NCBI GenBank assembly: GCA_012798435.1
Contig: JAAZNF010000005.1
Span: 1 to 32,152, forward strand
Origin: Myxococcales bacterium
Lineage (GTDB): Bacteria; Myxococcota; B64-G9
DNA length: 32,152 nt
Reading direction: 5' to 3'
Part shown: positions 5,314 to 27,410 of the stretch, piece by piece
How positions within the stretch are numbered: the stretch's first letter is position 1
How the letters are laid out: every line of letters starts with the position of its first letter
Position numbers and translations under genes: made by a program
The notes under the pieces: generated by a model
What the model was told of the DNA's origin: nothing
What the model saw: only the letters and a program-made list of their open reading frames with translations
Database searches by the model: none

Positions 5314-5316
5314 TCC

Positions 5317-9177: not shown

Positions 9178-9190
9178 CAAGGAGGAGAAC

Positions 9191-10096: not shown

Positions 10097-10181
10097 TGCC
10101 CACGGGGCAGCTTGCGCCATCGAGGGCGGTCTGCTACCTTCGGCCCACCATACAGCGGAGGCCCGCCCGGCAGGTTCGCCC

Positions 10182-12779
10182 ATGACCGAGATCACCGTCC
10201 CCCCCCAACCCGTCGTTCCGCCGCTCGCCATGCACGACGGCTACGGCCCGCTGCTGCGAGCCTTCTTCTCCCGCTACTTCGATCCCATCCGCTTCCCGCC
10301 CGAGGCCGCCGCGCGCATCCGGGAGATCGCCGAGCGCGGGCCGGTGGTGTACGTGGGGCGTTCCGCCAACCCGGTGCACTTCTTGTACCTCAACCACATG
10401 TGTCTGAAACACCGGCTCCCGCTAGCGGCCTTCGTCAATGAGGTGGACCCGATCCTGTTCGAGCCGGTCGGGCTCCTGCTCGGGCACATGCGCGACCTGG
10501 CCCGGGACGATTCGAACGAGCCACCGGACACCACCATCCATCCCGAGACGGTCCAGCTCGCTGCCATGCTCCAGGCGAACCGCTCCGCGCTGCTGTTTTT
10601 GGATCGCCCCGCCACCCTGACCAGCGTGGGCGGCGGAGACGGCACGCGCCTGCTCGAGACCCTGATCGAGGTGCAGCGGCGCATGGATCGCCCCATCCAC
10701 CTGGTACCCCACATGTTCGTGTGGGATCGCCACCCCGAGCGGGAATCGAAGAGCCTCACCGACGCGGTCTTCGGGCAACCCGAGGCCCCCGGCCTGCTGC
10801 GCTCGCTGTGGGTGCTGTGGCGCCGCTACCGCAACGCCTTCCTGAAGGTCGGCGAACCGCTGGATCTCAAGGCGTTCCTCGAGCAGGAGGGCCCGCCGGA
10901 CGCGGCACAACAAGCGCCGCGGCTTTTCGAGGCGCTGACGCAGCGGTTCTCGCTGGAAACCTACGGAGTCACCGGGCCGCGGCTCCGGCCGCACCAGGAG
11001 TTCATCCGCGACATCCTCTCGGATCCCCACCTCCTGGAGCACATCGCCTCCCAGGCGGCCGGCGACAACACCCGCACCGAGGCCCTGCGCCAGCGCGCCA
11101 ACGACCTATTGGACGAGATCGCCGCCGAGCCGCGCATCCGCTGGCCGCTGTTCCTCAACGCCGTGCTCAACGTCTTCTGGAGACGCATGTACGAGGGCGT
11201 GGTGGTGGATCAGGAAGGCTTCGAGCGCATCCGAGCCGCCCTGCGCAAGTCCCCGGTGGTGTTCTGCCCGGCGCACCGCTCGCACGTGGACTACCTCATC
11301 TTGAGCCAGATGTGCCTGCAGGAGGCGCTGCCGCTGCCCCACATCGCGGCGGGCATCAACCTGTCCTTCTGGCCCATGGGGCCCATCTTCCGCCACTCGG
11401 GCGCCTTCTTCATGCGCCGCTCGTTCAAGGGCGATGATCTGTACCCGGCGGTGTTCCGCACCTACCTGCGCCACGTCATGCGGGAAGGGTTTCCCATCGA
11501 GTTCTTCATCGAGGGCACCCGCTCCCGGACCGGAAAGCTCCTGCCGCCCAAGTTCGGCATCCTCTCCTGGCTGGTGCAGGCCTGCCTGGACGAATCCGAC
11601 GGCGACATCCACTTCGTGCCGCTGTCCATCGACTACGAAAAGATCGTGGAAGCGCGGAGTTACGTGCGGGAGCTCTCCGGGGGCGAGAAAGAGAAGGAGA
11701 ACGTGGTGGCCCTGGTGAAGGCCGGGGAGGCGCTGCGCAGCCGCTACGGCAAGATCTACCTGCAGGTGGGCAAGATCGTGTCGCTGCGCGAGTACCTCCT
11801 GCAGCGCGGCTACTCCGCCGCGCCCGACGAGGAGTCGCGCCGTCAGCTGATCTCGGCCCTGGCCCACGACATCCTCTTCCGTATCAATCAGGTGGCCACG
11901 GTCACTCCTTCCGGCCTGCTGGCGTTCTGCCTGCTCACCCACCGGCGGCGGGGCATGAGCGAGAAGAAACTGCTGGAGCGGGCCCGCTGGGCGGCCGAGT
12001 GGATCTCCCGCCGGCGGCCGGCGCGGTTCTCTCAGACCCTGTCCGACTTCCCGCGAGCGCTGGCCGAGGCCGCCTCCCGCTTTGCCCGGGATGGGCTGAT
12101 CACCCTGCAGGACACGGGGCTGGACGTGGTGCTCTCGCCGGTCGAGCACCGTCGCCTGGCGTTGGATTACTATCGCAACAACGTGATCCACCACTTCGTG
12201 CCGGCCTCGATCGTGATGCTGGCGCTCCAGTCCTTCACGGTGGAGGCAGTGCCGCGGGGCCCTCTCGCCGAACGCATCCAGGACCTGTCCCAGCTCCTCA
12301 AACAGGAGTTTCTGTTCCGCAGCCGACGCGAGTTCGACTCCGAGCTGCAGGAGGCCCTGACGGACCTGGGCCGCCTGGGCCTGCTGCGCTCGGAGGGCGA
12401 CTTCGTGGTCAAGAGCGAGGCGACCGGAGAGCTGGGCCAGGTGTTCTGCGGCGCCCTGGAGCACTTCCTGGAGTCGTACCTGTTGTGCGCCCGGGGCCTT
12501 TCGCTGCTCGAGCCCCAGCCGTTGCCCGAGCGCGAGTTCCAGAACCGCCTGCTGAAGCTCGGCGAGCACGAATTCGCCCAGGGGGAGCTGCGCTGGCCCG
12601 AGGCGCTATCGAGAGATCTGTTCCGCAACGCCATCCAGCGTTACACCGAGATGGGCCTTCTGGAACTCTCCTCTGCCGGGCGCAAGGACAGCCGCCTCGG
12701 CCTGACCCCACTGGGGAAGGACGCCGCTCGGCGCGAGGAGCTGTGCCAGCGCATCCGCCGTTTCCTGCCGCGGAACTAG
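10182..12779 (+). CDS. plsB: Glycerol-3-phosphate 1-O-acyltransferase PlsB
   Basis: This 865-residue protein is a PlsB-type acyltransferase that puts the first acyl chain on sn-glycerol-3-phosphate at the inner membrane. Acyltransferase block I, HRSHVD, spans His365-Asp370. Further blocks are GAFFMRRSFKG, EGTRSRTGK (from Glu444) and VPLSIDYEKI. The order and spacing match E. coli PlsB (807 residues), including IAAGINLSFWPMGPIF. The C-terminal PlsB domain (THRRRGMSEKKL onward) is complete. The N-terminal 300 residues contain a second, inactive-looking acyltransferase-like half. The 85-base gap after the catabolic operon and the unrelated function suggest it is a separate unit, although no clear terminator or strong promoter is visible in the gap. 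It is convergent with the CHAT gene, with 13 bases between stops. Confidence 0.95.
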   Translation: MTEITVPPQPVVPPLAMHDGYGPLLRAFFSRYFDPIRFPPEAAARIREIAERGPVVYVGRSANPVHFLYLNHMCLKHRLPLAAFVNEVDPILFEPVGLLLGHMRDLARDDSNEPPDTTIHPETVQLAAMLQANRSALLFLDRPATLTSVGGGDGTRLLETLIEVQRRMDRPIHLVPHMFVWDRHPERESKSLTDAVFGQPEAPGLLRSLWVLWRRYRNAFLKVGEPLDLKAFLEQEGPPDAAQQAPRLFEALTQRFSLETYGVTGPRLRPHQEFIRDILSDPHLLEHIASQAAGDNTRTEALRQRANDLLDEIAAEPRIRWPLFLNAVLNVFWRRMYEGVVVDQEGFERIRAALRKSPVVFCPAHRSHVDYLILSQMCLQEALPLPHIAAGINLSFWPMGPIFRHSGAFFMRRSFKGDDLYPAVFRTYLRHVMREGFPIEFFIEGTRSRTGKLLPPKFGILSWLVQACLDESDGDIHFVPLSIDYEKIVEARSYVRELSGGEKEKENVVALVKAGEALRSRYGKIYLQVGKIVSLREYLLQRGYSAAPDEESRRQLISALAHDILFRINQVATVTPSGLLAFCLLTHRRRGMSEKKLLERARWAAEWISRRRPARFSQTLSDFPRALAEAASRFARDGLITLQDTGLDVVLSPVEHRRLALDYYRNNVIHHFVPASIVMLALQSFTVEAVPRGPLAERIQDLSQLLKQEFLFRSRREFDSELQEALTDLGRLGLLRSEGDFVVKSEATGELGQVFCGALEHFLESYLLCARGLSLLEPQPLPEREFQNRLLKLGEHEFAQGELRWPEALSRDLFRNAIQRYTEMGLLELSSAGRKDSRLGLTPLGKDAARREELCQRIRRFLPRN

Positions 12780-12792
12780 CCGGCGCCGGAAC

Positions 12793-15700
12793 CTACTCGC
12801 CCAGGCCAAACAGCACGAATCCGGCCCAGTGGCCCGGGTGCGGGAAATACCGCCGCACCACCTGCTGGGCCAGGCGCAGCGCCCGGGCGGGTGGGTGGTG
12901 GGACAGCTCGCGATAGAGCCTCTTCATGAGCATGGCCGTCGCCGGATCGGCGACGCGCCACAAGCTGGCGATGACGTTTTGGGCGCCCGCGGACAGGAAG
13001 GCGCGGGGCAGACCCGCCAACTCGTCTCCCGCCACGCCGCCCGTGAGCGCGGAGTCGCAGGCCGACAACGTCACCAGGCGAGCCGACAGGAACAGGTCGA
13101 ACACCTCCTGCGCGCTGAGGTCTCCATCCCCGTTGGGCCCCGGTGAGAGCAGCAGCCGGCTGCGCAAGGGGTTGCGCGCGTCGAAGGTGCCGTGGCAGGC
13201 CAGGTGAACGAACTCGGCGTTCGGCAAGCGTTCGATGACGCGGTCCTTGCGGGCGTTCCCCCGGAGCCAGCGTTCGGCGCCGGGGAGCTCTCGCGACACC
13301 TCCACCGCCTCCAGCTCCGAAAGCGGCAGCGCCGGCCGGCCCTCCACGGTCGGGTTGCCCACCACCAGGGCCTCCCCGCTCGGCCCCAGCCGCTGCTCGT
13401 CGCGCCGCCGTAGCTGGTCCAGCATCAGCGCCGAATGCAACCAGAAAAGATCGAAACGCTCCCCCAGGATTCGCCCACTGCTGTCGCGCAGCGCGGCGAA
13501 CGGAACGCGGGCCAGGATGCCGTGGGGCACGATCCCCAGGCGCTCTGCCCCTGCCAGTTGATCCTCGACGGGCTCCAGCAGATCCCGGTACAGGAGGGCG
13601 AGCTCCCCGTCCACGGGTTCGAAATGCTGCATGTCCTCACGCAGCTCCTTGACGCGCCGCTCGAGCTCCGCGCGAGCCACCGGCACGACGCGCAGCAGGC
13701 GCCGATCGCCTCTCAGCGCCCACACCATGACCTGCTCGCGGGCGACGAAGTAGTCGAGCAGCACGGTATCCGGCGGGATCCTGCCCTCCAGATCCTGCAA
13801 GCGGATCTCCTGCATCTCGATCCGCTCGGCCAGCTCCGGTTGGATGCGGCGCAGCTCGAGCAGCGCCGCGTTCTTGCGCTCCATCGCCTCCTGAACCCGC
13901 CGGGCCTCGTCTCCGGTCGGGTCTTGAAGCCGGGCCTTTCCGGCCAAGATGCGATCCGCGTCCTGGATGGCCGCAAGGCACTCGTTGGCCCGCCCTCCCG
14001 CGCGGATGTCGCGCCCGGCCAGCAGATCCAGCAGGCGGCGCGAACGCGAGCGTTCGACCATGACCAGGGCGTCGTCGTCCCGCCCGAGTCTCCACAGCAT
14101 CCGCACGGCGGACTCGTAGAGTTCATACTTGTCGTCGGACAGCCCCGCCTGCAGATCGCTACCCGCGACCACCCGCATGCTCTCGACCAGCCGCAGCGCT
14201 TCCCGGTAATGGGCCAGGGCCGGCTCCAGCTCTCCCCTGCCCGCCCGCAAGTCGCCGAGCACGCGCTGTGCCCGCCAGGCGACCTCCTTCAGCCCGAGCT
14301 CGGTGGCGATCCGCTCCGCCTCCAGGGCATGGTCTTGCGCCGCCTCGCCCCCGCCCTCCAGGGCGCGTTCCGCGTCCGCCAGGCCCAGCAGCACCTTCGC
14401 CTGGTTGAACCGATCCTGCGCCGCGCGGCTGAGCCTCAGGGCCTCGTCGAGGTTGCGCTTGGCGGCGGCCCGGTTCCCGGCGGCGAGCTCCAACAGGCCC
14501 AGGTTGCGAAGATCGTACGCCCGACCCAGCTCGTTCTTGCGCGCCTCGTCCAGGCGCAGGGCCTCCTCGAAGCGCTGGCGGGCCAGGGCGGTGTCCCCGG
14601 CCTCGCGGGCCACCGCTCCGAGGTTGTTGAGCTGAGTGGCCTCTTCGTCCGCCAATCGGGCCTGGCGCGCCTCCTCCAGCGCCTGGCCCAGACGCTGCTC
14701 CGCCTCCTTCAGGTCCCCCAGGTTGAGGGCGATCAACCCTCCCAGGCTCCGGGCCATCACGGCCAGGCGGCGATCCCCCGCCTGCTTTGCCAGCTCCAGG
14801 GCGCGGCCCTGGGCGGCCCAGGCTTCCGGGTAGTCCCCGTGGTACCAGTGCGCGTGCGCCTGCTCGATGAACCCCGCGGCCTGTCCGGCCGCGTCCATGA
14901 GCTCCCGCGAAATCCCCAGCGCTCGCTCGGCCTGCTGCAGCGCCGCGGAATAGTCGCCGGCGGCCAGATCGCAGCGCGCCAGGTCCAACCCGATAGCGGC
15001 CTCTTGCGCGCGTTCCTTGAGGGCCCGCGCGATCCCCATGGCCGCCAGGAAACGCTCGCGCGCCACGGCGACGTCGTTGAGGCGCCGCAGGTAGATCGTC
15101 CCCGCGTTCTGCTCGAGCTTGAGGCGGCTCTTTTGATCTCCCAACGACTCGTAGATGGAGCTGGCCTTGCGCAGGGCCGCCAGCGCTTCCGGATAGCGCG
15201 AGGCGGCGTCCAGGGCCAGCGCCAGGTTGGTCCAGGCACCGGCAGACTCGGCCGGGTTGCCGCTTCTCTCCAACGCCTCGGCCGCGTCGCGTAGCAGTTC
15301 CTCGGCCGCGCGGTGGTTTTGCAGGCGAGCCTCCAGCACACCCAGCAGCGCCTGCGCGCGCGCCACGGCCACGGCGTCTCCCGCCCGCCGGGCGATGTCC
15401 ACGATCTGGGTCTGGTGGAACCGCGCCCGCGAGAAATCCTCCAGGTGGAAGGAGCACTGGACCAATCCCTGTTCGATGCGGGGCAGCAGCTCCTCGCGTC
15501 CCAAGAAGCGCGCCCAGAAGCGCGTCCGCAAGAACGCCTCCTGCGCCTCCTTCCAGCGCTTGGCGCTGTATGCCGACATGGCGCGCTGGACATCCGCGGG
15601 CAGCGCGGCTTCGGCGCGTGCGCGCCGCTCGGTGGCGTCGAGCCCCGGATCACCGAGGACCTGCCAGGAAGGCACGGCGGCCTGCGGCCTGGGCCCGCGC

Positions 15701-18700
15701 CCGTTCAGCGCAGATACGGCCGCCGCCGGACCGGCACGCTCCAGGAGGGATAAAAGTTCCGGCAGGGCGGCCTGGACCAGATCCGACAGCCGATCGCCGG
15801 GCACCACGACGCTGGGGACCCCGGCGGCGATCATGGCCGCCAGCAACGCCTCCCGCGCTGGGACATCGCGTGGCTCGAGAAGAGCGACCCACAGACTGGC
15901 GCGCGCGGTCTGCTCGTCCAGCACGAGGCCCTCACGCCCTCCTCGCACCCAGGGACGGAGCAGGCGCAACGGGTTGCCCCGGAGCAACTCCTCCAAGAAC
16001 ACCACGCCCGCCTCCTCCCCGGCCAACGCGCGCGCCGCGGCACTCCCTTCGGTCGGGCGGACGTTCAGTTCGCCCAGGCGCTCCTTCAACGCCCACGCGA
16101 ACGTCGCCCCGGGCGCCCCGCCGCGCCACAGCCCGATGCGATAGTTGAAGCGCGGGCTCCGGCGCAGGCGGACCAGGTCCGAGGCGGTCGAAAGGCGGCT
16201 CACCGAAAGCCGCGCCCGCAACGGAACCCCATCCAGCTCGAGCTCCTCCAGCGGGATCTCGCTCGTTCCCGCGGCCAGCAGGACGGTGCGCCGACCCGCG
16301 AGTTCCTTGCGCCAGGGTTCCGCCAGCCACTCCGTCAGCCGGCGCCTGGCGAGCCGGGAGCGCTCGGGATCGCCGCCGCGCAACTCCTCCACCGTCTGCC
16401 GCAGCGCCGTGGCCGGCACCGGCAACGTCACCTCTCTCATCCCATCGCCCGTGATCCAGAAGCTGATCAGCCGCCGGGGGGTCGGGACGTAGACGAGCAT
16501 GCCTTCGCCAGGCAAGAGCGCCGCGCGGATCTCGGCGGCCGAGGCGGCCTGGCCCCAGAGCAGCCACAGGGCATTGGAAGCGGCTGTCCGGGCGCGTAGC
16601 TCAGCGAACTCCGCAAGCCCGGACTCGACCTCGCGCTTCGAGCGGGCCCGCTCCTCCTCCGTCGCCGCAGGCTCGAGCCGCGCCAGGGCCGCTTGCACGC
16701 GGATGACGATCTGTCGAAACCGCTGGAGCGACTCCGCCTCCTCGGGGACGAGCAGCTCCATGTCGTCGGTCTGCAGCCGATCCTGTCGGTCTCGCAAGCG
16801 GGCGTTTTCGAACCATTCCAGGGCCGCGGCGGTATCCTCCCGGGCCAGCGCCTCTTCTCCCAGCGATCGCAACAGCTCGTCCCGGGCCAGCCGGGCGGCA
16901 CGGTCGTGCCGTGTCCCGGCGAGTTCGCTCGGCAACGACAGCAGCGCCTTGGCCCTGTCCAGCGCAGGGGCGCCGGAGAGCCGCCAGGCCACGGGCACCA
17001 GCCCAAATTCCTCGCTGCGGCGTTGGTTCTCGCGCCGCAGCGCGTCCGCCGCCTGTGTGTCGCCCTCGAACTCGCGCAAGACGGCCAGGTTGTCACAGGC
17101 CAGCGTCGCCGCAATCAGCTCCTCGCGGTTCCGCGGATCCTCCGCCGGACAGGCGCGCGCCAGATCTTCGCCCGCCTGCTCCAGACGCCGGACCGCGTGA
17201 TCCAGAAACGCGAAAGATTGCATGAGCTGGCGCTCGGGATCCGATTGGGCCGCGAGGAGGGGTTGCGAGAGCGCCGCCCGGAATCCAGCGACGCCCCGGG
17301 CGCTGGCAAAACGACGGAGCAGAGCGGGGTCTACGAGATCGCCGGCCCGCTCCACCCGGCCCTGGATGGCGGACAGGCGCTGGTCCACCTCCAGCCAGCT
17401 CACGCCGCTCTCGTCGGCCGCGGCAAGGCTCGCCAGGTTGGCACCTCCGGCAGCCAGCCCCTCTGCCTCCTGAGCGGCGTCGGCATACGACAGCGACTCG
17501 CGCACCTGGCGGGCGGCCTGCGAAAGCTCGCCGGCGCGGGCCAGCCGATCGGCCTGCTGGCTGGCCGCTCGAGCGAAATCCGGGGCCAGGGCTTCCACCC
17601 CTTCCCGTTGCATCTCGACGGAAAGAAGCTCGAGGGCGCGCGCGCCGGCTGCCAGCGCCAACCATGGATCTCCCATTCGCCAGAAGAGCCGGCTCTGCAG
17701 CATCGCCAGCAGGTACCGCTCTTGTGCCCGGCTGAATCCGAAGGCCGCCCGCGACCCGCGCCCGCTGACCGCTACCGACACCCCGCCGCCGGCGTCTTCC
17801 GCCTCGCCGAGCCGGGCAAGGAGCCTCTCGGCCTCGGCGAAGGCTCCGGCGGCCTCCTCGAGCCTGTTCGCCAGCATCAGGTTGTTGGCCAGGTTGCGCT
17901 GGCAGATCTCCTCCCGCGCCACCTGCTTCTCCTCCCGGTAGATCCGGCAAGAGCGGCGGAAGGCCTCGATCGCCGCCAGGTGGTCTTCCGCCATCTGGTG
18001 CGCTGCCCCCAGCGCGCTCCACAGCCAGCCGAGGCGAGCGCGCCGGGCCGGCTCGCGCTCCGCGTGCTCGATGGCGGCGGCGAAGCTCCGCCGAGCGTCT
18101 TCATGTTCTCCCGCCAGGAAGGCGGCCCGCCCGAACTGCTCGAGGAACACCTGCCGGGTCACCGGGTGGCGGAACGGGAATCCCGCGGCTTCGCGCCTCT
18201 TGAGGAACTGATGGGCCTGGCGGTGGTTGCCAAGCAAGAAATGCACGTTGCCCAGGTTCTGCAGCAGGTCTGCTTCGGTCTCCGGTTGGGTGCGCGCGTC
18301 GAGCAACGTGAGCGCCGTATCGTAGGCCGCCGCCGCGCGGCTCAGCGCTTCGCCATCTCCGTCTTGTCTTCCGCGCTGCTCCTCGATCCAGCCCAGGGTC
18401 TGGTGGGCGTACGGCAGCCGCTCGTCGAGCGCCAACGCCTCGCGCAGGTGGCGCTCCGCCTCCGAGAAGTGCCGGGGCGGCTCGTGGTAGGTCAACGCCA
18501 GCCCGACCAGGTAGTGCGAGAGTTCGTTCGGGCGCGCCGCCAGGAGATCGCGGCAGCGCTGGAGCGCGGGCGCGATCTGGCCCGAGCGCGCCATGAGATC
18601 CAGCCAGCGCCGCCACAACACCGGATCGTCGTCGTATTGCTCCAACATGCGCTGCGCTACGCGCAGCGCGCCCGCGATCTCACCGCGCGAGGTGAGTTCG

Positions 18701-20685
18701 TCCAAGGTGCGCCGCCCGAGCTCCTCCAGTTCGCGCCGCGCCGGCACCGCCGCGGCCGGATGATCCGGGAACCGCCGCAGCAGGTCCACCGCTCGATCCA
18801 GGGCCGCGCCGGTATCGCCAGCGCCGCGGTCCAGCCGGGAGAGTGCCAGCAGCGCCCGACCGGCCAGATCCGGAGGCGTGTCCTTGCTTTCGAACACAGC
18901 CGTGAGGGCCGCCCGCGCCCGGCCCTGCTGGTGCTGGCCCAGGTACCACTCGCCGAGGGCCAGGCCGGCCAGGCTGCGGAGATCCGGCAGGTGTTCGCCC
19001 TCCTGTATCAGCTCTTGCAGGCGCTCCAGCGCCGGGCGCGCGTCGGCCGCCTCGGGCAGTGACAACGAAAGCCCCACCAGGAATTCCGCGGCCCGGCGTC
19101 TTTCGGCCGGGGTGGCCCGCAAGGCCTTCAGCACGGCCAGCGCATCGCCTCGGGCGCCTTCCGGATTGCCGGTGCGGTTCCACAGCTCCGCGCGCTGCAG
19201 CAGGGCCTTCACCGCCAACCGGCTCTGGCTCTTCTGCGCTTCGAGGGGCTGCGCAAGCGCCTCGAGCGCCTCGTCGGGACGACCGGCCCGATCCAGGATC
19301 TGGGCGCGCAACAAGGCGCGCCGCGTTTCGGATACCGGCAACGACTCGACCTCACCGAGGAACTCCTCGATACGCGCGCGCCGTTCCAGAAGCTGCGCCC
19401 CGGACAGCCCCGCGGGCAGCTCGCGCTGGACGCGCGCCGCCAGCAAGCCCCATCGAGCCCGGTTCCGGATGGAGGCCAGGCGCGCCTTCTCCGACAGAGC
19501 CGAGAACATCTCGACCGCCTCTTGCAGCCGGCCCGCCTCGAGCAAACGCTCTCCCTGAAGCACCCGCGAAAGCTCCACCTCGCCGAATGCCCCGAGCTCG
19601 CGCTCGGCCCGGCGCAGCCAGTACAGGGATTGCTGCAGGTCGGGCGCGCCGTTGGCACGCGCCAACATGTCCTTGCGACTGCCGACGGGAGCGCCCAGCC
19701 CGGTGATGGAAGTCCGCCAGATGTCCAACCCGCCTTCACTGCGGCTGGCGTAGTACACATCGTTGCCCATGATCCGGGGCTGGATGTCGGACGAGAGTCC
19801 GGTCGTCAGCGGGAATGGCTCCGAGGCGCGGCCGTCCGAGGCGATCTCCACCCGCCACAAGGAGGGGCGATCGGCGGTGTCGATGCGACCGTCGCCATTG
19901 GTGTCGTCCTGGAAGCGGGAGAACACCACCCGCCACGGCGCGACCTCGCCGCCAAAGGCGGGGAACGCCTCGGGGCGATCGCAAGCGGTGAGTGGCCGCT
20001 CGCCGCCATCGGCAAGATCGTGCAGCCAGATGCAGGGAGGCCCCTCGCGATTCGGCGAGGTGAAGGCCAGGTAGCGCCCGTCCGGCGAGACCGCGGGGTC
20101 GAACCCGTCGCGGCGGGTCAGCCGCGAGACGCTGCGACTGGCGGCGTCCAGGAGGTAGATGCCCTCGCTGTCGCTGTCGGGCTGGAGCCGCGTGAAGGCC
20201 AACCGGCCATCCGGGAGAAATGCCGGCTGTCGCTCCGCGGTGTTGCGATCGGTGAGCCGGTCGAGCCTGCCGCTCGCCAGATCCAGCAGGAAGATGTCCC
20301 CCTTGGCGTCGAGACGCTGGGAGACGAAGGCCAGCTTCTTTCCGTCGGAGGAGAGGGCCGGATCGAAATCGTCGGCGGGATCGCTGGTGACGCGCCGGGG
20401 CGTTCCCCCGGAGAGCGGCCGCACCCAGATCTCCCGGTCCTGTCCCTGGTTGGACACGTAGAAAAGCCGGCGTCGGACGATGTCGACGACCGGGGAGAGT
20501 TCGTCTTCCAACCCGCGGGTGACCTGGCGCGACTCAAAAGAGACAACGTCTTCGGTCGGCCCCTCGATGGCGTGCCGACCCGCGGCGCACCCGCCGGAGA
20601 AGACCAGCAGCAAGGCCGCGAAGGCACGACCTCCGCCCGTGGCCCTACACGTGGAAGACGTCGATTTCCTGCTTGAGACGCGCAC
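12793..20685 (-). CDS. Giant TolB-propeller/TPR protein with degenerate and intact CHAT domains
   Basis: This 2630-residue protein appears exported: Arg/Lys-rich start, hydrophobic AFAALLLVF, then SGGC with Cys33, an atypical lipobox. Residues about 45-335 are PD40/TolB propeller blades (DDFDPALSSDGKKLAFVS style). About 345-1150 are TPR repeats, then a coiled region. About 1395-1680 resemble a CHAT fold without the catalytic His and Cys. About 1700-2180 are canonical TPRs. About 2240-2630 form an intact CHAT domain with catalytic His2498 (HLACHG) and Cys2543 (SACDS). CHAT domains are caspase-like proteases that usually act in the cytoplasm after TPR-mediated sensing. The GTG at 20685 overlaps the chemoreceptor gene by 41 bases; the only in-frame later options, a TTG near 20607 and adjacent CTGs, would remove the signal peptide. 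Its target is unknown. Confidence 0.88.
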   Translation of the reverse strand: MRVSSRKSTSSTCRATGGGRAFAALLLVFSGGCAAGRHAIEGPTEDVVSFESRQVTRGLEDELSPVVDIVRRRLFYVSNQGQDREIWVRPLSGGTPRRVTSDPADDFDPALSSDGKKLAFVSQRLDAKGDIFLLDLASGRLDRLTDRNTAERQPAFLPDGRLAFTRLQPDSDSEGIYLLDAASRSVSRLTRRDGFDPAVSPDGRYLAFTSPNREGPPCIWLHDLADGGERPLTACDRPEAFPAFGGEVAPWRVVFSRFQDDTNGDGRIDTADRPSLWRVEIASDGRASEPFPLTTGLSSDIQPRIMGNDVYYASRSEGGLDIWRTSITGLGAPVGSRKDMLARANGAPDLQQSLYWLRRAERELGAFGEVELSRVLQGERLLEAGRLQEAVEMFSALSEKARLASIRNRARWGLLAARVQRELPAGLSGAQLLERRARIEEFLGEVESLPVSETRRALLRAQILDRAGRPDEALEALAQPLEAQKSQSRLAVKALLQRAELWNRTGNPEGARGDALAVLKALRATPAERRRAAEFLVGLSLSLPEAADARPALERLQELIQEGEHLPDLRSLAGLALGEWYLGQHQQGRARAALTAVFESKDTPPDLAGRALLALSRLDRGAGDTGAALDRAVDLLRRFPDHPAAAVPARRELEELGRRTLDELTSRGEIAGALRVAQRMLEQYDDDPVLWRRWLDLMARSGQIAPALQRCRDLLAARPNELSHYLVGLALTYHEPPRHFSEAERHLREALALDERLPYAHQTLGWIEEQRGRQDGDGEALSRAAAAYDTALTLLDARTQPETEADLLQNLGNVHFLLGNHRQAHQFLKRREAAGFPFRHPVTRQVFLEQFGRAAFLAGEHEDARRSFAAAIEHAEREPARRARLGWLWSALGAAHQMAEDHLAAIEAFRRSCRIYREEKQVAREEICQRNLANNLMLANRLEEAAGAFAEAERLLARLGEAEDAGGGVSVAVSGRGSRAAFGFSRAQERYLLAMLQSRLFWRMGDPWLALAAGARALELLSVEMQREGVEALAPDFARAASQQADRLARAGELSQAARQVRESLSYADAAQEAEGLAAGGANLASLAAADESGVSWLEVDQRLSAIQGRVERAGDLVDPALLRRFASARGVAGFRAALSQPLLAAQSDPERQLMQSFAFLDHAVRRLEQAGEDLARACPAEDPRNREELIAATLACDNLAVLREFEGDTQAADALRRENQRRSEEFGLVPVAWRLSGAPALDRAKALLSLPSELAGTRHDRAARLARDELLRSLGEEALAREDTAAALEWFENARLRDRQDRLQTDDMELLVPEEAESLQRFRQIVIRVQAALARLEPAATEEERARSKREVESGLAEFAELRARTAASNALWLLWGQAASAAEIRAALLPGEGMLVYVPTPRRLISFWITGDGMREVTLPVPATALRQTVEELRGGDPERSRLARRRLTEWLAEPWRKELAGRRTVLLAAGTSEIPLEELELDGVPLRARLSVSRLSTASDLVRLRRSPRFNYRIGLWRGGAPGATFAWALKERLGELNVRPTEGSAAARALAGEEAGVVFLEELLRGNPLRLLRPWVRGGREGLVLDEQTARASLWVALLEPRDVPAREALLAAMIAAGVPSVVVPGDRLSDLVQAALPELLSLLERAGPAAAVSALNGRGPRPQAAVPSWQVLGDPGLDATERRARAEAALPADVQRAMSAYSAKRWKEAQEAFLRTRFWARFLGREELLPRIEQGLVQCSFHLEDFSRARFHQTQIVDIARRAGDAVAVARAQALLGVLEARLQNHRAAEELLRDAAEALERSGNPAESAGAWTNLALALDAASRYPEALAALRKASSIYESLGDQKSRLKLEQNAGTIYLRRLNDVAVARERFLAAMGIARALKERAQEAAIGLDLARCDLAAGDYSAALQQAERALGISRELMDAAGQAAGFIEQAHAHWYHGDYPEAWAAQGRALELAKQAGDRRLAVMARSLGGLIALNLGDLKEAEQRLGQALEEARQARLADEEATQLNNLGAVAREAGDTALARQRFEEALRLDEARKNELGRAYDLRNLGLLELAAGNRAAAKRNLDEALRLSRAAQDRFNQAKVLLGLADAERALEGGGEAAQDHALEAERIATELGLKEVAWRAQRVLGDLRAGRGELEPALAHYREALRLVESMRVVAGSDLQAGLSDDKYELYESAVRMLWRLGRDDDALVMVERSRSRRLLDLLAGRDIRAGGRANECLAAIQDADRILAGKARLQDPTGDEARRVQEAMERKNAALLELRRIQPELAERIEMQEIRLQDLEGRIPPDTVLLDYFVAREQVMVWALRGDRRLLRVVPVARAELERRVKELREDMQHFEPVDGELALLYRDLLEPVEDQLAGAERLGIVPHGILARVPFAALRDSSGRILGERFDLFWLHSALMLDQLRRRDEQRLGPSGEALVVGNPTVEGRPALPLSELEAVEVSRELPGAERWLRGNARKDRVIERLPNAEFVHLACHGTFDARNPLRSRLLLSPGPNGDGDLSAQEVFDLFLSARLVTLSACDSALTGGVAGDELAGLPRAFLSAGAQNVIASLWRVADPATAMLMKRLYRELSHHPPARALRLAQQVVRRYFPHPGHWAGFVLFGLGE

Positions 20686-23227
20686 TTTTCTCGGCCAAGG
20701 ACTGCGTGGCCTCGCCCATCTCCTGCGCGGCCTTGGCGTGGTTCTTGGCGATCTCCCGCACCTGCTCGATGACCCGCAGGATATTGTCCGAAACCACCAT
20801 CTGTTCCGACAGGGTCGTGCGGGTCCGCTCCGCCGAGTCTCGCATGTCCCCCACCGTGGCCAGCGCCAGGCGGTTCTCCTGGGCCTGCTGGTTCACCAGC
20901 TTGCCGATGGCCTGCGTGCTCTGCAAGGTATCGCGGAAGGCGGCCAGCAGCTCCTCGCCGCTGCGGGTCTGCCCGGAGGCGGTCTCCGAGATCCGGCCGG
21001 CCAGCTCGGCTACCTGGTTGATCTCGCGGGTGACCACCGCGCTGGAGCGAGCCTGAGTCTCCGTGAACTTGGCGATTATCTCCACGTTCTCGGCCGCGCG
21101 CTGGACGTTGACCAGGATCTGGTTGAGCGATTCCCCCGCCTGTTGGGCCAGGTTCACGCCCTCGTTGACCGTGGCGCCGCCGCCGCGCATGACGCGGATG
21201 GCCTCGCCGGAGGCTTCCTGGATGTCGGTGATCATCTGCCCAATCTCCCGAGTGGAAGACCCGGTACGCTCGGCCAGGGAGCGGATCTCGTCGGCCACCA
21301 CCGCGAATCCCCGGCCGTGCTCGCCGGCCTGGGCGGCGATGATGGCCGCGTTGAGGGCTAGCAGGTTGGTCTGATCGGCGATCTCCTCGATCACTCCCAG
21401 GATGGAGCCGATGGCCTCGATGCGGTTGCCGAGCCCCAGAATGACGCTGGAGGCCTGCCGGGTGGACTCTACGATCCGATCCATGCCCTCGATGGTGCGC
21501 CGCACGGCCACCGCGCCTTCCTGGGCCACGTCGATGGCCCGGCGGGTCATCTGGGCGGTCTCCGCCGCCCGGTTGGTCACCTCGGCCACGGAGCGATCGA
21601 CCTCCGACATCGACTGGGCGGAGCGTACGGCGCCGGCGCTGAGCTCGTGGATGACCTGGGCCACCTCCTGCACGGCCCGGGTCATGCGCTCCACGATCTG
21701 ACCGGTGCGATCGACTGTCCCCTGCAACGAATCGCATTCCTTCAACATGAGCGAGAAACCCTGGCTCACCTTGTCGGCGACCTCGGCGGTCTCGCGGGCG
21801 GAGAGGGCCAGTTTTTTGAGCGCCTCGGTGCCGCTACCGATGGTCTGGTTGAGGCTGTGGACGGCGTTGCTGGTTTCGAGCACCGACTGAGCCTGCACAT
21901 CGGCCCCGGTGGCGATGGCCGAGGCCTTGAGCAATAGCCGGTCGCAGGTGCTGGCGATCTGGTTGGCCAGGGTGGAGACGTCGCGCACCATCCGCCGCAG
22001 GTTATCCGCCATGGCATGCAGCGCGTCCCCCAGCTCGCCGATCTCGTCGTCTCCCACCACGGTCAGATCCCGGCGCAGCTCGCCGCGGGCCACCTCGCCG
22101 GTGAACATCACCATGCGCCGGATGGTGCCACCCAGGTACGCCGCGAACAGCCATCCCAGGCCGGCCGCCACGACCAGCGAGCACAGCAGGATGCCCAGCG
22201 TCAGCCCCAGCAGGGTGCGCTGCGTGCTGAACAAGGCCGCGGCCCGCACCGGCGCGATGAGCACCCTCGACGAGTCCGCGCTGAAGGCGAAGGCGTAGCT
22301 GCCGGAGCCCGCGGGATCCGTCACGGTGCCCGAGACCCCGGGGCCGCGCAGGGCGACGATGGTCCGGTACAGTTCGCCAGAGAGGGGCTCGGCGTCCTGG
22401 CTGCGAAAGGCCGCCCCGTTCTGGTTCACCAGGTGCAGGAAGACGCCCTCCCCGAGCTTGCGGGATTCGGTGGTGAGGTACTTGTCGATCTCGCTCCGTC
22501 CGGCACCATCTTGCTCCAGGATACGCGCCCCGCGCTCCACCAGCACCAGGCCGCTCTCCATGCGCCGGCCCAGTTCCTCGGCCATGAGCCGGTTGGCGTG
22601 GAAGTTGCTGAAGGCTCCCACCAGCAGGGCTGGCATGCAGGCCAGGCCGAACCCCAGCATGATGGTCTTGCTTCCGAGGGACAACCCGCGCCGCCGCGGT
22701 CCGCCCCTGCCGTAACTTGACGCCGCCTCCAGCGCCTCTCCGGAACGAGCGCCAGGGGAGAAGAAGAACACCATGCCCATCGCCTGCGCCCCGAACAACC
22801 CCAGCAGCAGGAAGTAACCCAGGTACTGAACCGGGAGGTCGGCCTCCCAGATCATGAACAGGCCCACCCCGTTCATGAGCAGCACGGGACAGACGCCGCC
22901 GGTGATGGCCAGCTTGAGGTACAGACTGCCGGCTGCCCGTCGGGCCCTGTCGATGATGGCGTCCTCCAGTTTCTTGCCGGTCAGGTGGGCCTCGTAGAAA
23001 TCCATGAGCGGCTGGTAGAAGCGCAACACCAGAAAGACGGTGCACCAGCCTATCAGCACGGCGCCGGCCCACAGCACGATCTCGAACAGGAGCCAGTGAC
23101 CCTTCGGCGGGGGAAAGAACCAGATGATGAACAGGTTGCTGACCAATACCACCAGGCCCCACAAACCGACCAACAGGCCGGCCGTCCGGATGGGTGAAAC
23201 GTGGCGAGAACGGTCGGTTTCGTTCAC
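20645..23227 (-). CDS. Methyl-accepting chemotaxis protein with multi-TM N-terminus
   Basis: This 860-residue chemoreceptor transmits signals to CheA/CheW. TM helices lie at about residues 15-37, 44-70, 102-127, 134-155 and 187-207. A periplasmic-type loop of about 120 residues follows, then TM6 at about 330-355, a HAMP domain and a long MCP signalling domain. The hairpin tip has EEIADQTNLLALNAA followed by I630, Q633 and E636, where Tsr has Glu, Arg and Glu. There is no CheR-binding pentapeptide at the C-terminus (EIDVFHV). The start is GTG at 23227 with GAGGG just upstream; extending upstream would run antisense through the next gene. A sigma-70-like promoter lies at 23281-23254. No che genes are nearby, so its array partners must be encoded elsewhere. 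Confidence 0.92.
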   Translation of the reverse strand: MNETDRSRHVSPIRTAGLLVGLWGLVVLVSNLFIIWFFPPPKGHWLLFEIVLWAGAVLIGWCTVFLVLRFYQPLMDFYEAHLTGKKLEDAIIDRARRAAGSLYLKLAITGGVCPVLLMNGVGLFMIWEADLPVQYLGYFLLLGLFGAQAMGMVFFFSPGARSGEALEAASSYGRGGPRRRGLSLGSKTIMLGFGLACMPALLVGAFSNFHANRLMAEELGRRMESGLVLVERGARILEQDGAGRSEIDKYLTTESRKLGEGVFLHLVNQNGAAFRSQDAEPLSGELYRTIVALRGPGVSGTVTDPAGSGSYAFAFSADSSRVLIAPVRAAALFSTQRTLLGLTLGILLCSLVVAAGLGWLFAAYLGGTIRRMVMFTGEVARGELRRDLTVVGDDEIGELGDALHAMADNLRRMVRDVSTLANQIASTCDRLLLKASAIATGADVQAQSVLETSNAVHSLNQTIGSGTEALKKLALSARETAEVADKVSQGFSLMLKECDSLQGTVDRTGQIVERMTRAVQEVAQVIHELSAGAVRSAQSMSEVDRSVAEVTNRAAETAQMTRRAIDVAQEGAVAVRRTIEGMDRIVESTRQASSVILGLGNRIEAIGSILGVIEEIADQTNLLALNAAIIAAQAGEHGRGFAVVADEIRSLAERTGSSTREIGQMITDIQEASGEAIRVMRGGGATVNEGVNLAQQAGESLNQILVNVQRAAENVEIIAKFTETQARSSAVVTREINQVAELAGRISETASGQTRSGEELLAAFRDTLQSTQAIGKLVNQQAQENRLALATVGDMRDSAERTRTTLSEQMVVSDNILRVIEQVREIAKNHAKAAQEMGEATQSLAEKSARLKQEIDVFHV

Positions 23228-23253
23228 CTGGTGTCCCTCGAACGAACGGGCCC

Positions 23254-23281
23254 ATTGTACCTTGAAGTATCGAAGAGTCAA
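23254..23281 (-). promoter_or_regulatory. Sigma-70-like promoter for the chemoreceptor-CHAT unit
   Basis: On the minus strand a TTGACT -35 element (23281-23276) and a TACAAT -10 element (23259-23254) are separated by 16 bases, about 27 bases before the GTG start. Both match the consensus at five of six positions. Confidence 0.7.
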
Positions 23282-23299
23282 ACGAATCGCCGGGTTGCA

Positions 23300-23328
23300 T
23301 TGGCCTTTCGAGCGGTCTCGACTATAAT
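23300..23328 (+). promoter_or_regulatory. Sigma-70-like promoter for the MopE-repeat lipoprotein
   Basis: A perfect TATAAT -10 element at 23323-23328 is preceded by TTGGCC (23300-23305, four of six matches) with a 17-base spacer. The ATG is at 23351, giving a leader of roughly 15 bases with GAGGAG as the ribosome site. It is back to back with the chemoreceptor promoter. Confidence 0.65.
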
Positions 23329-23350
23329 GGAGCTGGTTGCGAGGAGCCTC

Positions 23351-24763
23351 ATGAAAATAACGATTTGCCTCATGGTGCTTGCGCTTTCCCTCAGCCTGGC
23401 CGCGTGCTCCTCCGGAGGGGAGGCCGGCTGCCGCGTCGACACCGACTGCCCCTCGGGCCGGTACTGCGCCATCCTGTCCGGGGATTGCGTGTACGACTGT
23501 GTGCTGGCGTCGGACTGTCCCGAGCGGTACCGCTGCACCGGCCGGGGCCGGTGCGAGCTCGGCTGCTCCATCACCCACGGCGGCGTCGAGGACTGTGACG
23601 GGGTGGACAACGACTGCGACGGCGACACCGACGAGGATCTCTCGCCGCGTTCCTGCGAGCGCACGAACAGCTACGGCACCTGCACGGGCACCGAAACGTG
23701 CGTGTCCACCGCCTGGCAGTGCGACGCGCTTGTCCCGGCGCGCGAGATCTGCGACGGAGTGGACAACAACTGCGACGGGCAGACCGACGAGGGGTTCAAC
23801 TCGGGGCAACCCTGTTCCGGAGAGGGCGCCTGCCCGGACGGCGTGTGGGAGTGCGTGGACTCCACCGGGCAGCGCTGCAGCACCCTGCCGGGCGGCTCGG
23901 ACGACCGCTCCAGCGCGGAGGTCTGCGACGGTGTGGACAACGACTGCGACGGCGAGACCGACGAGGACATCCCGCCGCTGGACGAGTGCGAGCTGGGGGC
24001 CGCCGCCCACGACGGCAAGGACAACAACTGCAACGGCGTGCCCGACGAGCCCGGCTGCATGGTGCGGGTGCCCTACACCCTGGAAGGGTTCGTCGTGCTG
24101 ATCGACAAGTACGAGGCCACCGTCTTCGAAAACGCCGACTGCACCGGACAGCGCTTCGGCGAGGAGAAGTCCAGCTACGACTACCCCGCCGGCTGGCCGC
24201 CCAACGACACCAGCGTCACCGTGACCCTGTACGCCTGCTCCCTGCCGGGCCTTCGCCCCTCGCGCAACTTGACCTGGTACCAGGCGCGCCGGGCCTGCCA
24301 GGCTTCGGGCAAGCGCCTGTGCACCAAGCGGGACTGGTCCATGGCCTGCGGCGCCGACTGGGACGGCAGCAACTTCCAGTATCCATACGCCGACCGGGTC
24401 TACAGTCCCACCGCCTGCAACACCTTCACCCGTCTCGTCGGCGACACGGTGGCGAGCGGATCCCTGGACACCTGCCGCTCGCGGATCGGCAGCTATGACC
24501 AGAGCGGCAACCTGTGGGAATGGACGGATTCGCCCTGCGAGAAAGACGCCGCCAAGCGCTCGGTGCAGGGCGGCGCCTACGAGTGCTGGACCCAGACGAC
24601 CTCCGGCTGGGAGGCGTGCGACTTCGACGACCCGGACCAGCGGCGCACGGACATCGAGCAGCGCCACCAGTGCCAGTACCCCATGACCTACACCGACTAC
24701 TGCGACTCGCCCCTGACCGCCAACGCCACCATGGGCTTCCGCTGCTGTTGGGATCCGCCCTGA
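23351..24763 (+). CDS. Lipoprotein with MopE-type repeats and FGE-like C-terminal domain
   Basis: This 470-residue surface lipoprotein has signal MKITICLMVLALSLSLAAC with lipid-site Cys19. A Cys-rich segment (residues 27-72) leads into MopE-type repeats. Three have the pattern CDGVDN(D/N)CDGxTDE and a fourth is HDGKDNNCNGVPDE. MopE-type repeats are thought to bind metal (Ca or Cu) and stabilise extracellular proteins. From about residue 237 a formylglycine-generating-enzyme/sulfatase-modifying-factor-like fold appears: VLIDKYEAT, TWYQARRACQASGKRLCT, SGNLWEWT, GGAYEC and a terminal GFRCC. The catalytic CX4C pair of true FGE is not visible (the next Cys after GGAYEC is about 13 residues on), so a non-enzymatic or ligand-binding role is more likely. 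The start is supported by GAGGAG at 23341-23346. Confidence 0.88.
   Translation: MKITICLMVLALSLSLAACSSGGEAGCRVDTDCPSGRYCAILSGDCVYDCVLASDCPERYRCTGRGRCELGCSITHGGVEDCDGVDNDCDGDTDEDLSPRSCERTNSYGTCTGTETCVSTAWQCDALVPAREICDGVDNNCDGQTDEGFNSGQPCSGEGACPDGVWECVDSTGQRCSTLPGGSDDRSSAEVCDGVDNDCDGETDEDIPPLDECELGAAAHDGKDNNCNGVPDEPGCMVRVPYTLEGFVVLIDKYEATVFENADCTGQRFGEEKSSYDYPAGWPPNDTSVTVTLYACSLPGLRPSRNLTWYQARRACQASGKRLCTKRDWSMACGADWDGSNFQYPYADRVYSPTACNTFTRLVGDTVASGSLDTCRSRIGSYDQSGNLWEWTDSPCEKDAAKRSVQGGAYECWTQTTSGWEACDFDDPDQRRTDIEQRHQCQYPMTYTDYCDSPLTANATMGFRCCWDPP
23596..23976 (+). repeat. Three dispersed copies encoding the MopE motif
   Basis: Near-identical runs encoding CDGVDN(D/N)CDG begin at about 23594, 23751 and 23928, roughly 157 and 177 bases apart. 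Each keeps the gtggacaac core. They are coding repeats within the lipoprotein gene, not a mobile or CRISPR repeat. Confidence 0.8.
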
Positions 24764-25297: not shown

Positions 25298-25327
25298 TTG
25301 ATGCCTTACCATGTTTTACCGCACAAT
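25298..25327 (+). promoter_or_regulatory. Weak candidate promoter before the beta-helix gene
   Basis: TTGATG at 25298-25303 and CACAAT at 25322-25327 are 18 bases apart, each with four or more matches to the sigma-70 consensus, about 35 bases before the ATG. It is tentative. Confidence 0.35.
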
Positions 25328-25361
25328 GGCAATCGTCGTGCGCAGGAGAGTGGAGGTGACC

Positions 25362-27410
25362 ATGTCCCGAAAGCTCTGGTTGTGGGGGTCCATCGCGGCG
25401 CTGCTCTGGTGCGGCCGCTCGCGGGCCGAGGATCGCCTGACCCTGCTCGATCCGGTGCGGGTGGACCGTCCCACGCTGATCCACCTCGGCGTACAGCTCC
25501 TCATCCAGGGCGATGACGACCACGACGCCACGGTATCGGTCCGCTATCGCGCGGTGGGGCAGAGCGCCTGGCGGGATGGCCCGCCGCTCTTCCGGGTGCG
25601 GCCCGAGGACGTGGCCGGGCTTTCGGTGCCCGAGCAGTTCGCCGGAAGCCTGTTCTACCTGCGCCCTGGCACCGAATACGAGATCGAGCTTGTCGTCCGC
25701 GATCCCGACAACGGCTCGGAGCTGGTCCGGACACTGACCGCGCGGACTCGCGGCGTGCCAGGCGATCCGGCGCAACCGGACACGGTCAATGTCTCCGATG
25801 CCACCGGGCTGCGCTCCGCTCTCTCCGCCGCCCGCGCCGGAACGATCATCGTCCTGGCCGACGGCACCTATTCCGGCACGTTCTCCATCAACCAGAGCGG
25901 GACGGCCGAGAACCCCATCGTCATCCGCGGACAACACCGTGACGGGGCGATCCTGGATGGCGGTGGCAGCACCGGAAACGTCTTCGAAATCTACGGAAGT
26001 TTCGTGCACCTCGAGAACCTCACCCTGCGGAACGCCAACCGAGCGCTGCGCTTCCAGGGCGCCGGCACCGAGGGAAACGTGGCCCGGCGGCTGCGCATCC
26101 GCGACGTGCGCCTGGGCATCGGCAGCCGCGAGAACCAGAAGGACTTCTACATCTGCGACAACGACCTGCAAGGGCTGCTCCAGTGGCCGACGATCTACAC
26201 CGACGACGGCGGGACGCACGCCAACGACGACGGCATCAACCTGGCCGGGGACGGCCACGTGGTGTGCCACAATCGCCTGCAAGGCTTCGGCGACGCGCTC
26301 AAGATCGAGCAGGACGGGAGCCGGGCGGTGGACTTCTACGGGAACGAGGTGGTCAGCGCCTACGACAACGCGATCGAGCTCGACACGCTGGCCGGGAACG
26401 GCCGGGCGGTCTTCAACCGCTTCACCAACGCCTTCATGCCGGCCTCCTTCCAGCCGGTGTTCGGGGGGCCGGTGTATTTTCTACGCAACGTGGTGGTCAA
26501 CTACACCTCGGAGCCCCTCAAGTTCCACAACAGCACCTCGGGTGTCTTGGTCCTGCACAACACCTTCGTGAGCCCCGGCGCGCCGCTGGTGGTGTGGGAC
26601 GACACGACCAGCTCCCACTTCGCTATCCAGAACAACATCTTCCTGGGCCCGGCCGCTCTCGGCGGCGCGCGCACCGTGGACTGGAGCGGCACGGTTCGAG
26701 ACGGCCTGTTCGACTACAACGCCTACCGCCCGGACGGGGGCTTTCGCATCCGCTTCGAGTCGGGGGCGGTGTCGGTGTCGAGCTTCGCCGCTCTGCAAGG
26801 CGCCGGCGTCGAGAGCCACGGCCTGCTGCTCGCGGCGTCGCCGTTCGAGAGCGGGCTCGAGCCGCCCACGAGCTACACCGAGACCCTCTCCCCACCCGAG
26901 GCCATCCTCTCCGCGACCACCCCGGCGCTGGACCGGGGCCTCCTGCTCCCCGGCATCAATGACGCCTTCCGAGGAAGCGGCCCCGATCTGGGCGCGCTCG
27001 AACGCGGCTGTCCCTCCCCCATCTTCGGCATCCGGCCCGAGGGCGTGGACGAGCGGAGCGAGCCGTTCGGCTGCGAGACCGGGCAACCCATCGAGGAGGA
27101 CGGCGGCGACGGGGACGCCGGGAGCGGCGATGCGGGGGTGGACGCATCCGACGGTTCCCAACAAGGCGATGCCGGCGATGCCTCGCCCGGGGACCCAACC
27201 GCCGACGCCGGCACCGACACGGGAGCGGCGGACGATGGCCTTCCACCCGCGGACGGCGGAGACGGGCTGGCGCCGGGAGACGGCTTGGGCGAGCGGATGT
27301 CGGGTGGTTGTGGCTGCGCCTCGGCACCCGCTCCGGCCGCGCTAGGCATCGCGGGGTTGTTCTTCCTCCGGCGACGAAAGACGCCAGAAAAAGACGCCCT
27401 GATCTGCTAG
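25362..27410 (+). CDS. Secreted parallel beta-helix protein with MYXO-CTERM tail
   Basis: This 682-residue secreted protein has a cleavable signal (MSRKLWLWGSIAALLW). A fibronectin-III-like domain lies at about residues 25-140 (YLRPGTEYEIEL). A right-handed parallel beta-helix at about 145-540 has repeated short strands (FVHLENLTLRNANRAL, VFEIYGS), as in polysaccharide lyases and alginate epimerases. After an Asp/Gly-rich linker (about 575-645) the C-terminus is GGCGCASAPAPAALGIAG, a hydrophobic stretch, then RRRK. This is a MYXO-CTERM sorting signal, normally removed by a dedicated myxobacterial rhombosortase-like system and linked to surface attachment. The start at 25362 is chosen for GGAGG at 25352-25356; an upstream ATG at 25311 has no such site. 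The substrate is unknown but a polysaccharide is likely. Confidence 0.87.
   Translation: MSRKLWLWGSIAALLWCGRSRAEDRLTLLDPVRVDRPTLIHLGVQLLIQGDDDHDATVSVRYRAVGQSAWRDGPPLFRVRPEDVAGLSVPEQFAGSLFYLRPGTEYEIELVVRDPDNGSELVRTLTARTRGVPGDPAQPDTVNVSDATGLRSALSAARAGTIIVLADGTYSGTFSINQSGTAENPIVIRGQHRDGAILDGGGSTGNVFEIYGSFVHLENLTLRNANRALRFQGAGTEGNVARRLRIRDVRLGIGSRENQKDFYICDNDLQGLLQWPTIYTDDGGTHANDDGINLAGDGHVVCHNRLQGFGDALKIEQDGSRAVDFYGNEVVSAYDNAIELDTLAGNGRAVFNRFTNAFMPASFQPVFGGPVYFLRNVVVNYTSEPLKFHNSTSGVLVLHNTFVSPGAPLVVWDDTTSSHFAIQNNIFLGPAALGGARTVDWSGTVRDGLFDYNAYRPDGGFRIRFESGAVSVSSFAALQGAGVESHGLLLAASPFESGLEPPTSYTETLSPPEAILSATTPALDRGLLLPGINDAFRGSGPDLGALERGCPSPIFGIRPEGVDERSEPFGCETGQPIEEDGGDGDAGSGDAGVDASDGSQQGDAGDASPGDPTADAGTDTGAADDGLPPADGGDGLAPGDGLGERMSGGCGCASAPAPAALGIAGLFFLRRRKTPEKDALIC

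Follow-up and report, generated by a model that had tools for sequence, protein, structure and literature searches.

Can a CHAT protease work outside the cytoplasm? Most of what is known of CHAT proteases, a caspase-like family, concerns cytoplasmic effectors in CRISPR and other defence systems. The question is raised by a gene on contig JAAZNF010000005.1 of a Myxococcales bacterium (assembly GCA_012798435.1; 5.05 Mb, 129 contigs, 97% complete), and the 32,152 nucleotides analysed here, which are the entire contig 80 of this genome, are called the window. A frame of 2630 codons on the minus strand (12793–20685) encodes a very large protein with a CHAT domain at its C-terminus. Our reading, at a probability of about 0.7, is that this protein is an exported, membrane-anchored CHAT cysteine protease, an envelope lipoprotein which would serve as sensor, scaffold and protease. 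An earlier reading of the letters alone (the sequence-only reading) had placed a CHAT protease at 19690–20685. Both the CHAT domain and the PD40 propeller were found, but this span covers only residues 1–332, that is the N-terminus and the propeller, and the CHAT domain sits 6 kb away from it.

The domain order is read directly from the sequence. The frame opens at GTG 20685, the first start codon 3' of the preceding in-frame stop, and ends at 12793, and orthologues follow the probable lipoprotein along most of its length. From the N-terminus, all on the minus strand, it contains a signal-peptide-like segment with SGGC (residues 1–33; 20587–20685), a TolB-like beta-propeller (residues 45–345; 19651–20553), a first helical/TPR stretch (residues 346–1329; 16699–19650), a degenerate CHAT domain (residues 1330–1690; 15616–16698), a second TPR stretch (residues 1691–2284; 13834–15615) and an active-type CHAT domain (residues 2285–2630; 12796–13833). 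The limits of both TPR stretches were taken from the adjoining domains. Pfam reports PD40 (E 5e-17, best stretch 96–124), many TPRs (TPR_12 with best stretch 850–918 in the first TPR stretch, TPR_1 at 1817–1845 and TPR_2 at 2019–2047 in the second) and the C-terminal CHAT domain (PF12770; E 2.7e-62, 211 bits against a cut-off of 24, residues 2363–2627).

From GTG 20685 the N-terminus reads MRVSSRKSTSSTCRATGGGRAFAALLLVFSGGC. In the roughly 80 codons from this GTG, the in-frame starts are GTG 20685 itself, a TTG within the hydrophobic run, a TTG within the conserved RQVTRGLEDELSP and a GTG further on in the propeller, and GTG 20685 is the sole usual start codon that gives the complete hydrophobic segment. 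If the true start lay past the hydrophobic run, the protein would be cytoplasmic, as are the CHAT proteins studied in CRISPR and defence settings, and the weak ribosome-binding site at GTG 20685 (GAG, 4 bases upstream, by eye) would fit this alternative. However, the first start past the hydrophobic run among the codons shown is the TTG inside the conserved RQxTTxLADELSP, so that family-conserved residues would be lost. Moreover, relatives can encode the hydrophobic segment with its Cys, and covarying Cys pairs suggest an oxidising compartment. We consider a cytoplasmic protein very improbable.

We collected 19 N-termini, which are the frames from the fetched stretches and three further loci, window included. 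A hydrophobic run and a Cys before the propeller are present in 19 of 19 N-termini by eye (the window and 18 Myxococcota orthologues), and in 18 of 19 by a numerical rule, in which a hydrophobic 9-mer is followed by a Cys within 7 residues and the result is compared with composition-preserving shuffles; the L035 N-terminus lies below the hydropathy threshold. Rather than starting downstream of the hydrophobic segment, 18 of 18 orthologues can thus include it together with the Cys by eye, and 17 of 18 by the rule. Single p values of the shuffle test range from 0.02 to 0.38 for 18 N-termini (0.044 for the window), and they combine to a Fisher p of 2.6e-6 when L035 is given p = 1 and relatedness is ignored. 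Export of the CHAT protein, which the sequence-only reading had proposed from the hydrophobic run and SGGC followed by a PD40 propeller (a layout that sequence and Pfam bear out), is very probable from these orthologue N-termini, from the covarying Cys pairs and TolB-like propeller described below, and from the membrane-receptor gene next door.

The form of anchoring is less certain. Of the bacterial lipoprotein pattern, the window's protein has the Cys and Gly at -1, with Ser at -3, so the lipobox is indeed non-canonical, as had been noted from the letters. Across the 19 N-termini, position -3 is Leu or Val in 11, position -1 is G/A/S in 18, and Asp occurs at +2 in none (by eye, with the Cys chosen by eye where two candidates existed). 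The G003 orthologue, with LSGC, is one whose lipobox is canonical. In E. coli, lipoprotein sorting follows the residue at +2, and under this rule the absence of Asp points to the outer membrane. Lipid anchoring is probable for the CHAT protein family and is favoured, with more reserve, for the window's own protein. Alternatively, the protein could be exported without being a lipoprotein: the hydrophobic run would be an uncleaved N-terminal anchor or a type I signal peptide, and the same domains would be periplasmic without lipid. A lipobox with Ser at -3 and Gly at -2 is a poor one, other poor boxes occur in the family (QFGC, GSGC, SWGC, LTRC), the M. xanthus protein DdvA is named as a transmembrane CHAT protein, and several other CHAT proteins of these genomes have type-I-like signals. 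Nevertheless, the Cys after the hydrophobic run is kept in all 19 N-termini, with Leu/Val at -3 in the 11 noted above, and Cys33 and C2543 are the two unpaired Cys conserved across families (two rows are misaligned at C33). On this balance, a non-lipidated form is unlikely.

Three Cys pairs, 15–17 residues apart, are co-present or co-absent in a full-length alignment of 19 rows. C218/C235 in the propeller and C913/C928 in the first TPR stretch are present in 8 of 8 rows of the window's family and in 0 of 11 other rows, while C1801 and C1817 occur together in 7 of 10 outside rows and are missing from all 7 family rows. Alignment noise was considered as a source of these pairs and rejected, with C1801 and C1817 in exactly the same rows and both family pairs complete in 8 of 8. 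For the partly conserved Cys at 360, 373, 2098 and 2497, the co-occurrence pattern was absent. The covarying pairs behave as disulphides would, which suggests an oxidising, extracytoplasmic place.

The propeller points the same way. Residues 45–345 model as a beta-propeller (mean predicted local distance difference test, pLDDT, 88.5), whose best Foldseek matches are TolB, and the propeller sequence also matches TolB, with a WD-40 protein as the top row of one such search. Model, Foldseek and sequence matches therefore agree on the TolB-like propeller of the sequence-only reading; the score against the TolB equivalog TIGR02800 is 121.3 bits, below its cut-off of 343.15. Within the propeller, an EF-hand-like loop (DTNGDGRIDTAD; residues 261–272) is retained, with some variation, in most of 18 rows but not in L037, and it may bind calcium.

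A further question is whether this protein is a protease. In its C-terminal CHAT domain, His2498 and Cys2543 are shared without exception by the 16 domains compared, although mean column identity is 47% and the identity of the domains goes down to 22%, and both residues align with the HG and AC motifs of Csx29 and Craspase TPR-CHAT. From this conserved dyad, protease activity of the domain is quite probable. The domain at residues 1330–1690 is different. Pfam reports no CHAT domain there, and it was recognised by hhalign against the active-type CHAT domain (99%, E 9e-18), by its model (pLDDT 77.9) and by its fold, which matches Craspase TPR-CHAT (8d9f; Z 20.4 over 322 residues, root-mean-square deviation 4.9), separase (18.7) and DdvA (15.2). 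Gingipain K was also matched in fold (Z 11.5), but less strongly than the CHAT proteins, and this match was set aside. At the catalytic positions, His is replaced by Leu (L1567) and Cys by Pro (P1605). Because the His survives in a single row of 17 (L035) and the Cys in no row, the domain looks like a dead copy of a formerly active-type CHAT domain. In L035 this domain (3783–4730, minus strand) still reads GAHG at the catalytic His position, likely a relic of the active form.

These counts also bear on a reading in which the protein is an envelope scaffold and not a protease, with CHAT domains as binding modules and a dyad kept for structure. One of its two CHAT domains lacks the dyad, and repeats fill much of the protein. 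However, invariance of His and Cys in all 16 C-terminal domains despite identity down to 22%, against a degenerate domain with Cys in 0 of 17 and His in 1 of 17, argues for catalysis at the C-terminus, and we judge a pure scaffold to be improbable.

The first 895 residues were searched against 39 genomes, and 19 matched, source genome included. Three of them (G009, G021, G023) have only short frames of 446–705 residues, which leaves a long relative in 16 of 39 genomes. In the window's family, 8 of 9 members match, and the ninth (G002) is 70% complete. With the full-length query, 17 frames match including the window (from 16 fetched stretches), several of which are contig-cut pieces. A single-sequence scan of genome contigs confirmed no relative, and an alignment-based scan gave 13 loci, 10 of them on contigs equal in length to contigs of the genomes already searched. 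The named relatives are metagenome-assembled genomes labelled Deltaproteobacteria, Myxococcales or Myxococcota. In a phylum search with a profile of the degenerate CHAT domain, 20 of 195 genomes match; the matches in G025 and G048 are ordinary CHAT-sized frames of about 1100 residues, and the remaining 18 of 195 indicate a patchy distribution within the phylum.

Which partner might such a protein have? Directly upstream on the same strand lies the gene of a methyl-accepting chemotaxis protein (MCP) of about 860 residues (20645–23227, minus strand, GTG 23227 taken as candidate start), with MCPsignal (144.6 bits) and HAMP (31.9 bits) both above cut-off and six hydrophobic segments in a simple scan. 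An MCP gene occupies this position in all 8 family members for which upstream DNA is available (in G005 it is split into two overlapping frames), and the upstream neighbour is the best match to the window MCP in 6 of 6 relatives searched, G005 left out. This conserved chemoreceptor neighbour and the degenerate second CHAT domain had both been missed by the sequence-only reading. Because the CHAT gene is coupled to the MCP gene in the family, the best candidate for a partner is the receptor or its ligand, although a functional link between CHAT protein and chemoreceptor is tentative, at somewhat less than even odds.

The same neighbourhood bears on another reading, in which the protein is a surface or secreted weapon or defence factor, for predation, kin competition or phage response, and not a sensor. 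Excerpts of one paper describe CHAT as an effector domain in defence systems (PMC10907252), and myxobacteria use lipoprotein toxins (PMC8546572). However, the same neighbour gene is kept across the family, and no defence gene was found among the 12 window proteins scanned with Pfam, so a weapon or defence factor seems quite unlikely. PADLOC run on the CHAT protein alone gave a generic TPR match only, and a defence-system assignment was set aside.

Several observations weigh against an envelope lipoprotein protease linked to a receptor. Besides its weak ribosome-binding site, GTG 20685 falls within the MCP gene, whose 3' end overlaps the CHAT gene by 41 bases. The 19 N-termini are related and hence not independent events, and each Cys pair may likewise be one inherited gain. 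The window's SGGC is among the poorest boxes and has Ser at -3, and a non-lipidated cleaved signal or an uncleaved anchor fits nearly as well. The CHAT domain of orthologue L031 is divergent, and its gene is absent from the PF12770 matches at E 1e-20. In G007 and G008 the MCP match spans only residues from about 330 onward. Finally, outside the window's family the upstream gene is DUF748-like in 8 of 11 loci, which rules out the chemoreceptor as a universal partner.

These DUF748-like proteins have 1132–1514 residues and a conserved C-terminus, and their genes lie upstream of the CHAT gene on the same strand in L030, L031, L032, L035, L036, L037, L046 and L049; five of the eight genes built the detecting profile, which leaves three independent detections. 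Pfam DUF748 matches 2 of 5 scanned proteins, below cut-off, and gives no match for the other 3. We take this neighbour to be related to AsmA proteins. A distant relative of it is encoded elsewhere in the window's genome. In L033, L034 and L051 neither an MCP nor a DUF748-like gene is upstream, and L034 has little upstream DNA.

Taken together, an exported and lipid-anchored CHAT protease could work as follows. A Sec-type signal with a relaxed lipobox would take the protein across the inner membrane, and the N-terminal lipid would anchor it, most likely in the outer membrane. Outward from the anchor would follow the TolB-like propeller, the first TPR solenoid, the degenerate CHAT domain without catalytic residues, the second solenoid and the active-type CHAT domain. 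Propeller, solenoids and degenerate CHAT domain may bind an envelope ligand or partner, and binding would free the C-terminal CHAT domain, by which an envelope protein would be cut. More speculatively, the arrangement might be separase-like: the degenerate CHAT domain would hold or position the partner, the lipid-anchored active domain would cut the periplasmic part of the neighbouring MCP, and this would give an irreversible proteolytic chemosensory input, with envelope CHAT proteases more broadly making up an extensive and as yet unstudied tier of signalling outside the cytoplasm of Myxococcota. We regard this extension as rather unlikely. If the envelope reading is true, a conserved family of proteins of about 2600 residues, probably envelope-anchored and each combining a dead CHAT domain with a live-looking one, would move the CHAT class into envelope signalling, and the adjoining chemoreceptor gene offers a concrete, testable partner candidate.

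The sequence-only reading had noted that CHAT proteins are mostly described as cytoplasmic, which would make export unusual. This expectation finds no support in these bacteria. We counted 58 CHAT places in 26 of 39 genomes and, leaving out the long propeller proteins and the source genome's own, read 20 of about 44, mostly top-ranked. By eye, 18 of these 20 are signal-peptide- or lipoprotein-like at the N-terminus, several with type-I-like signals, while the signal of L107 is weak and L097 lacks one. The second CHAT protein encoded in the window's genome is also signal-like, with MSMVLVSSLVTLLLAAPGPAPS near its N-terminus. The survey loci are L092–L111, and this second CHAT protein lies at L090 4483–7845 (minus strand). 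With it included, pattern matching detected both motifs, that of the His and that of the Cys, in 19 of 21 Myxococcota CHAT proteins, L104 and L111 being without the Cys pattern. Among nine CHAT proteins from plasmid records, six have clear signal-peptide-like N-termini and the one from Picosynechococcus is a weak case, whereas those from Nostoc commune and Anabaena sp. 90 lack the feature. In Nostoc commune, the adjacent upstream TPR gene encodes a hydrophobic segment at its N-terminus, so the CHAT gene may be the downstream part of a gene that was split. In Caballeronia, the CHAT gene (L056 2852–6840), whose product is signal-like at the N-terminus, is flanked by type VI secretion genes on one side and by a ShlB/FhaC two-partner secretion gene on the other. 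Among the matches listed in full-text literature searches, as far as the excerpts go, no paper devoted to an exported CHAT protease was found; in excerpts, a Bacteroides fragilis CHAT protein appears transmembrane (PMC11854122), and PMC8055020 merely lists a CHAT gene. Export-like N-termini on CHAT proteins are thus widespread in sequence data and little discussed in the literature searched. The survey of 20 proteins suggests that export is the usual state of CHAT proteins in these bacteria, which bears on any inference from cytoplasmic examples.

Other genes of the window were noted as well. On the plus strand, 2629–12779 contains a run of genes matching a molybdopterin-type dehydrogenase subunit, AllH, a CoA-ligase-like protein, AllG, a cyclase and a glycerol-3-phosphate acyltransferase, which looks like a purine or oxamate breakdown module beside an acyltransferase. 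Divergent from the MCP gene, 23201–24763 (plus strand) encodes MopE-type metal-binding motifs and a sulfatase-modifying-factor domain, and an internal start at MKITICLMVLALSLSLAACSS would turn its product into a lipoprotein. Further on, 25311–27410 and 27969–29348 (plus strand) encode two proteins with matches of parallel beta-helix type (Chondroitinas_B at its cut-off, and Beta_helix).

Among known systems, TolB of Tol-Pal has a propeller of the same kind, but it is a stand-alone periplasmic protein with a different N-terminal domain. Eukaryotic separase is a very large protein that ends in a caspase-like domain and pairs a pseudo-protease with a protease. It is not known to be exported or to have a lipid anchor or propeller. 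The degenerate CHAT domain matches the separase protease fold, as given above, and unlike in the separase pairing, the two CHAT domains of the window protein are about 590 residues apart. TPR-CHAT/Csx29 is the cytoplasmic CRISPR partner of type III-E (Craspase). It likewise has TPRs and then CHAT, with a catalytic-type His and Cys aligned with H2498/C2543, and the window protein reaches 42.9 bits against the Csx29 NCBIfam model NF041237, whose cut-off is 300. In DdvA of Myxococcus xanthus, the CHAT domain probably faces the periplasm. DdvA likewise ends in a CHAT domain with HG and AC motifs and is named a transmembrane anti-sigma factor with a solved structure (PDB 8rot, 8rw5), while it has 991 residues, and neither propeller nor second CHAT domain was seen in the DdvA matches. 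Its role as an anti-sigma factor of M. xanthus is given in excerpts of PMC4374960. Finally, cyanobacterial and proteobacterial CHAT proteins with a signal-peptide-like N-terminus, from Leptolyngbya, Nostoc sp. UHCC 0302, Fremyella, Caballeronia and Azospirillum (LSGC), share this kind of N-terminus at a much smaller size, about 727 to 1187 residues against 2630 here.

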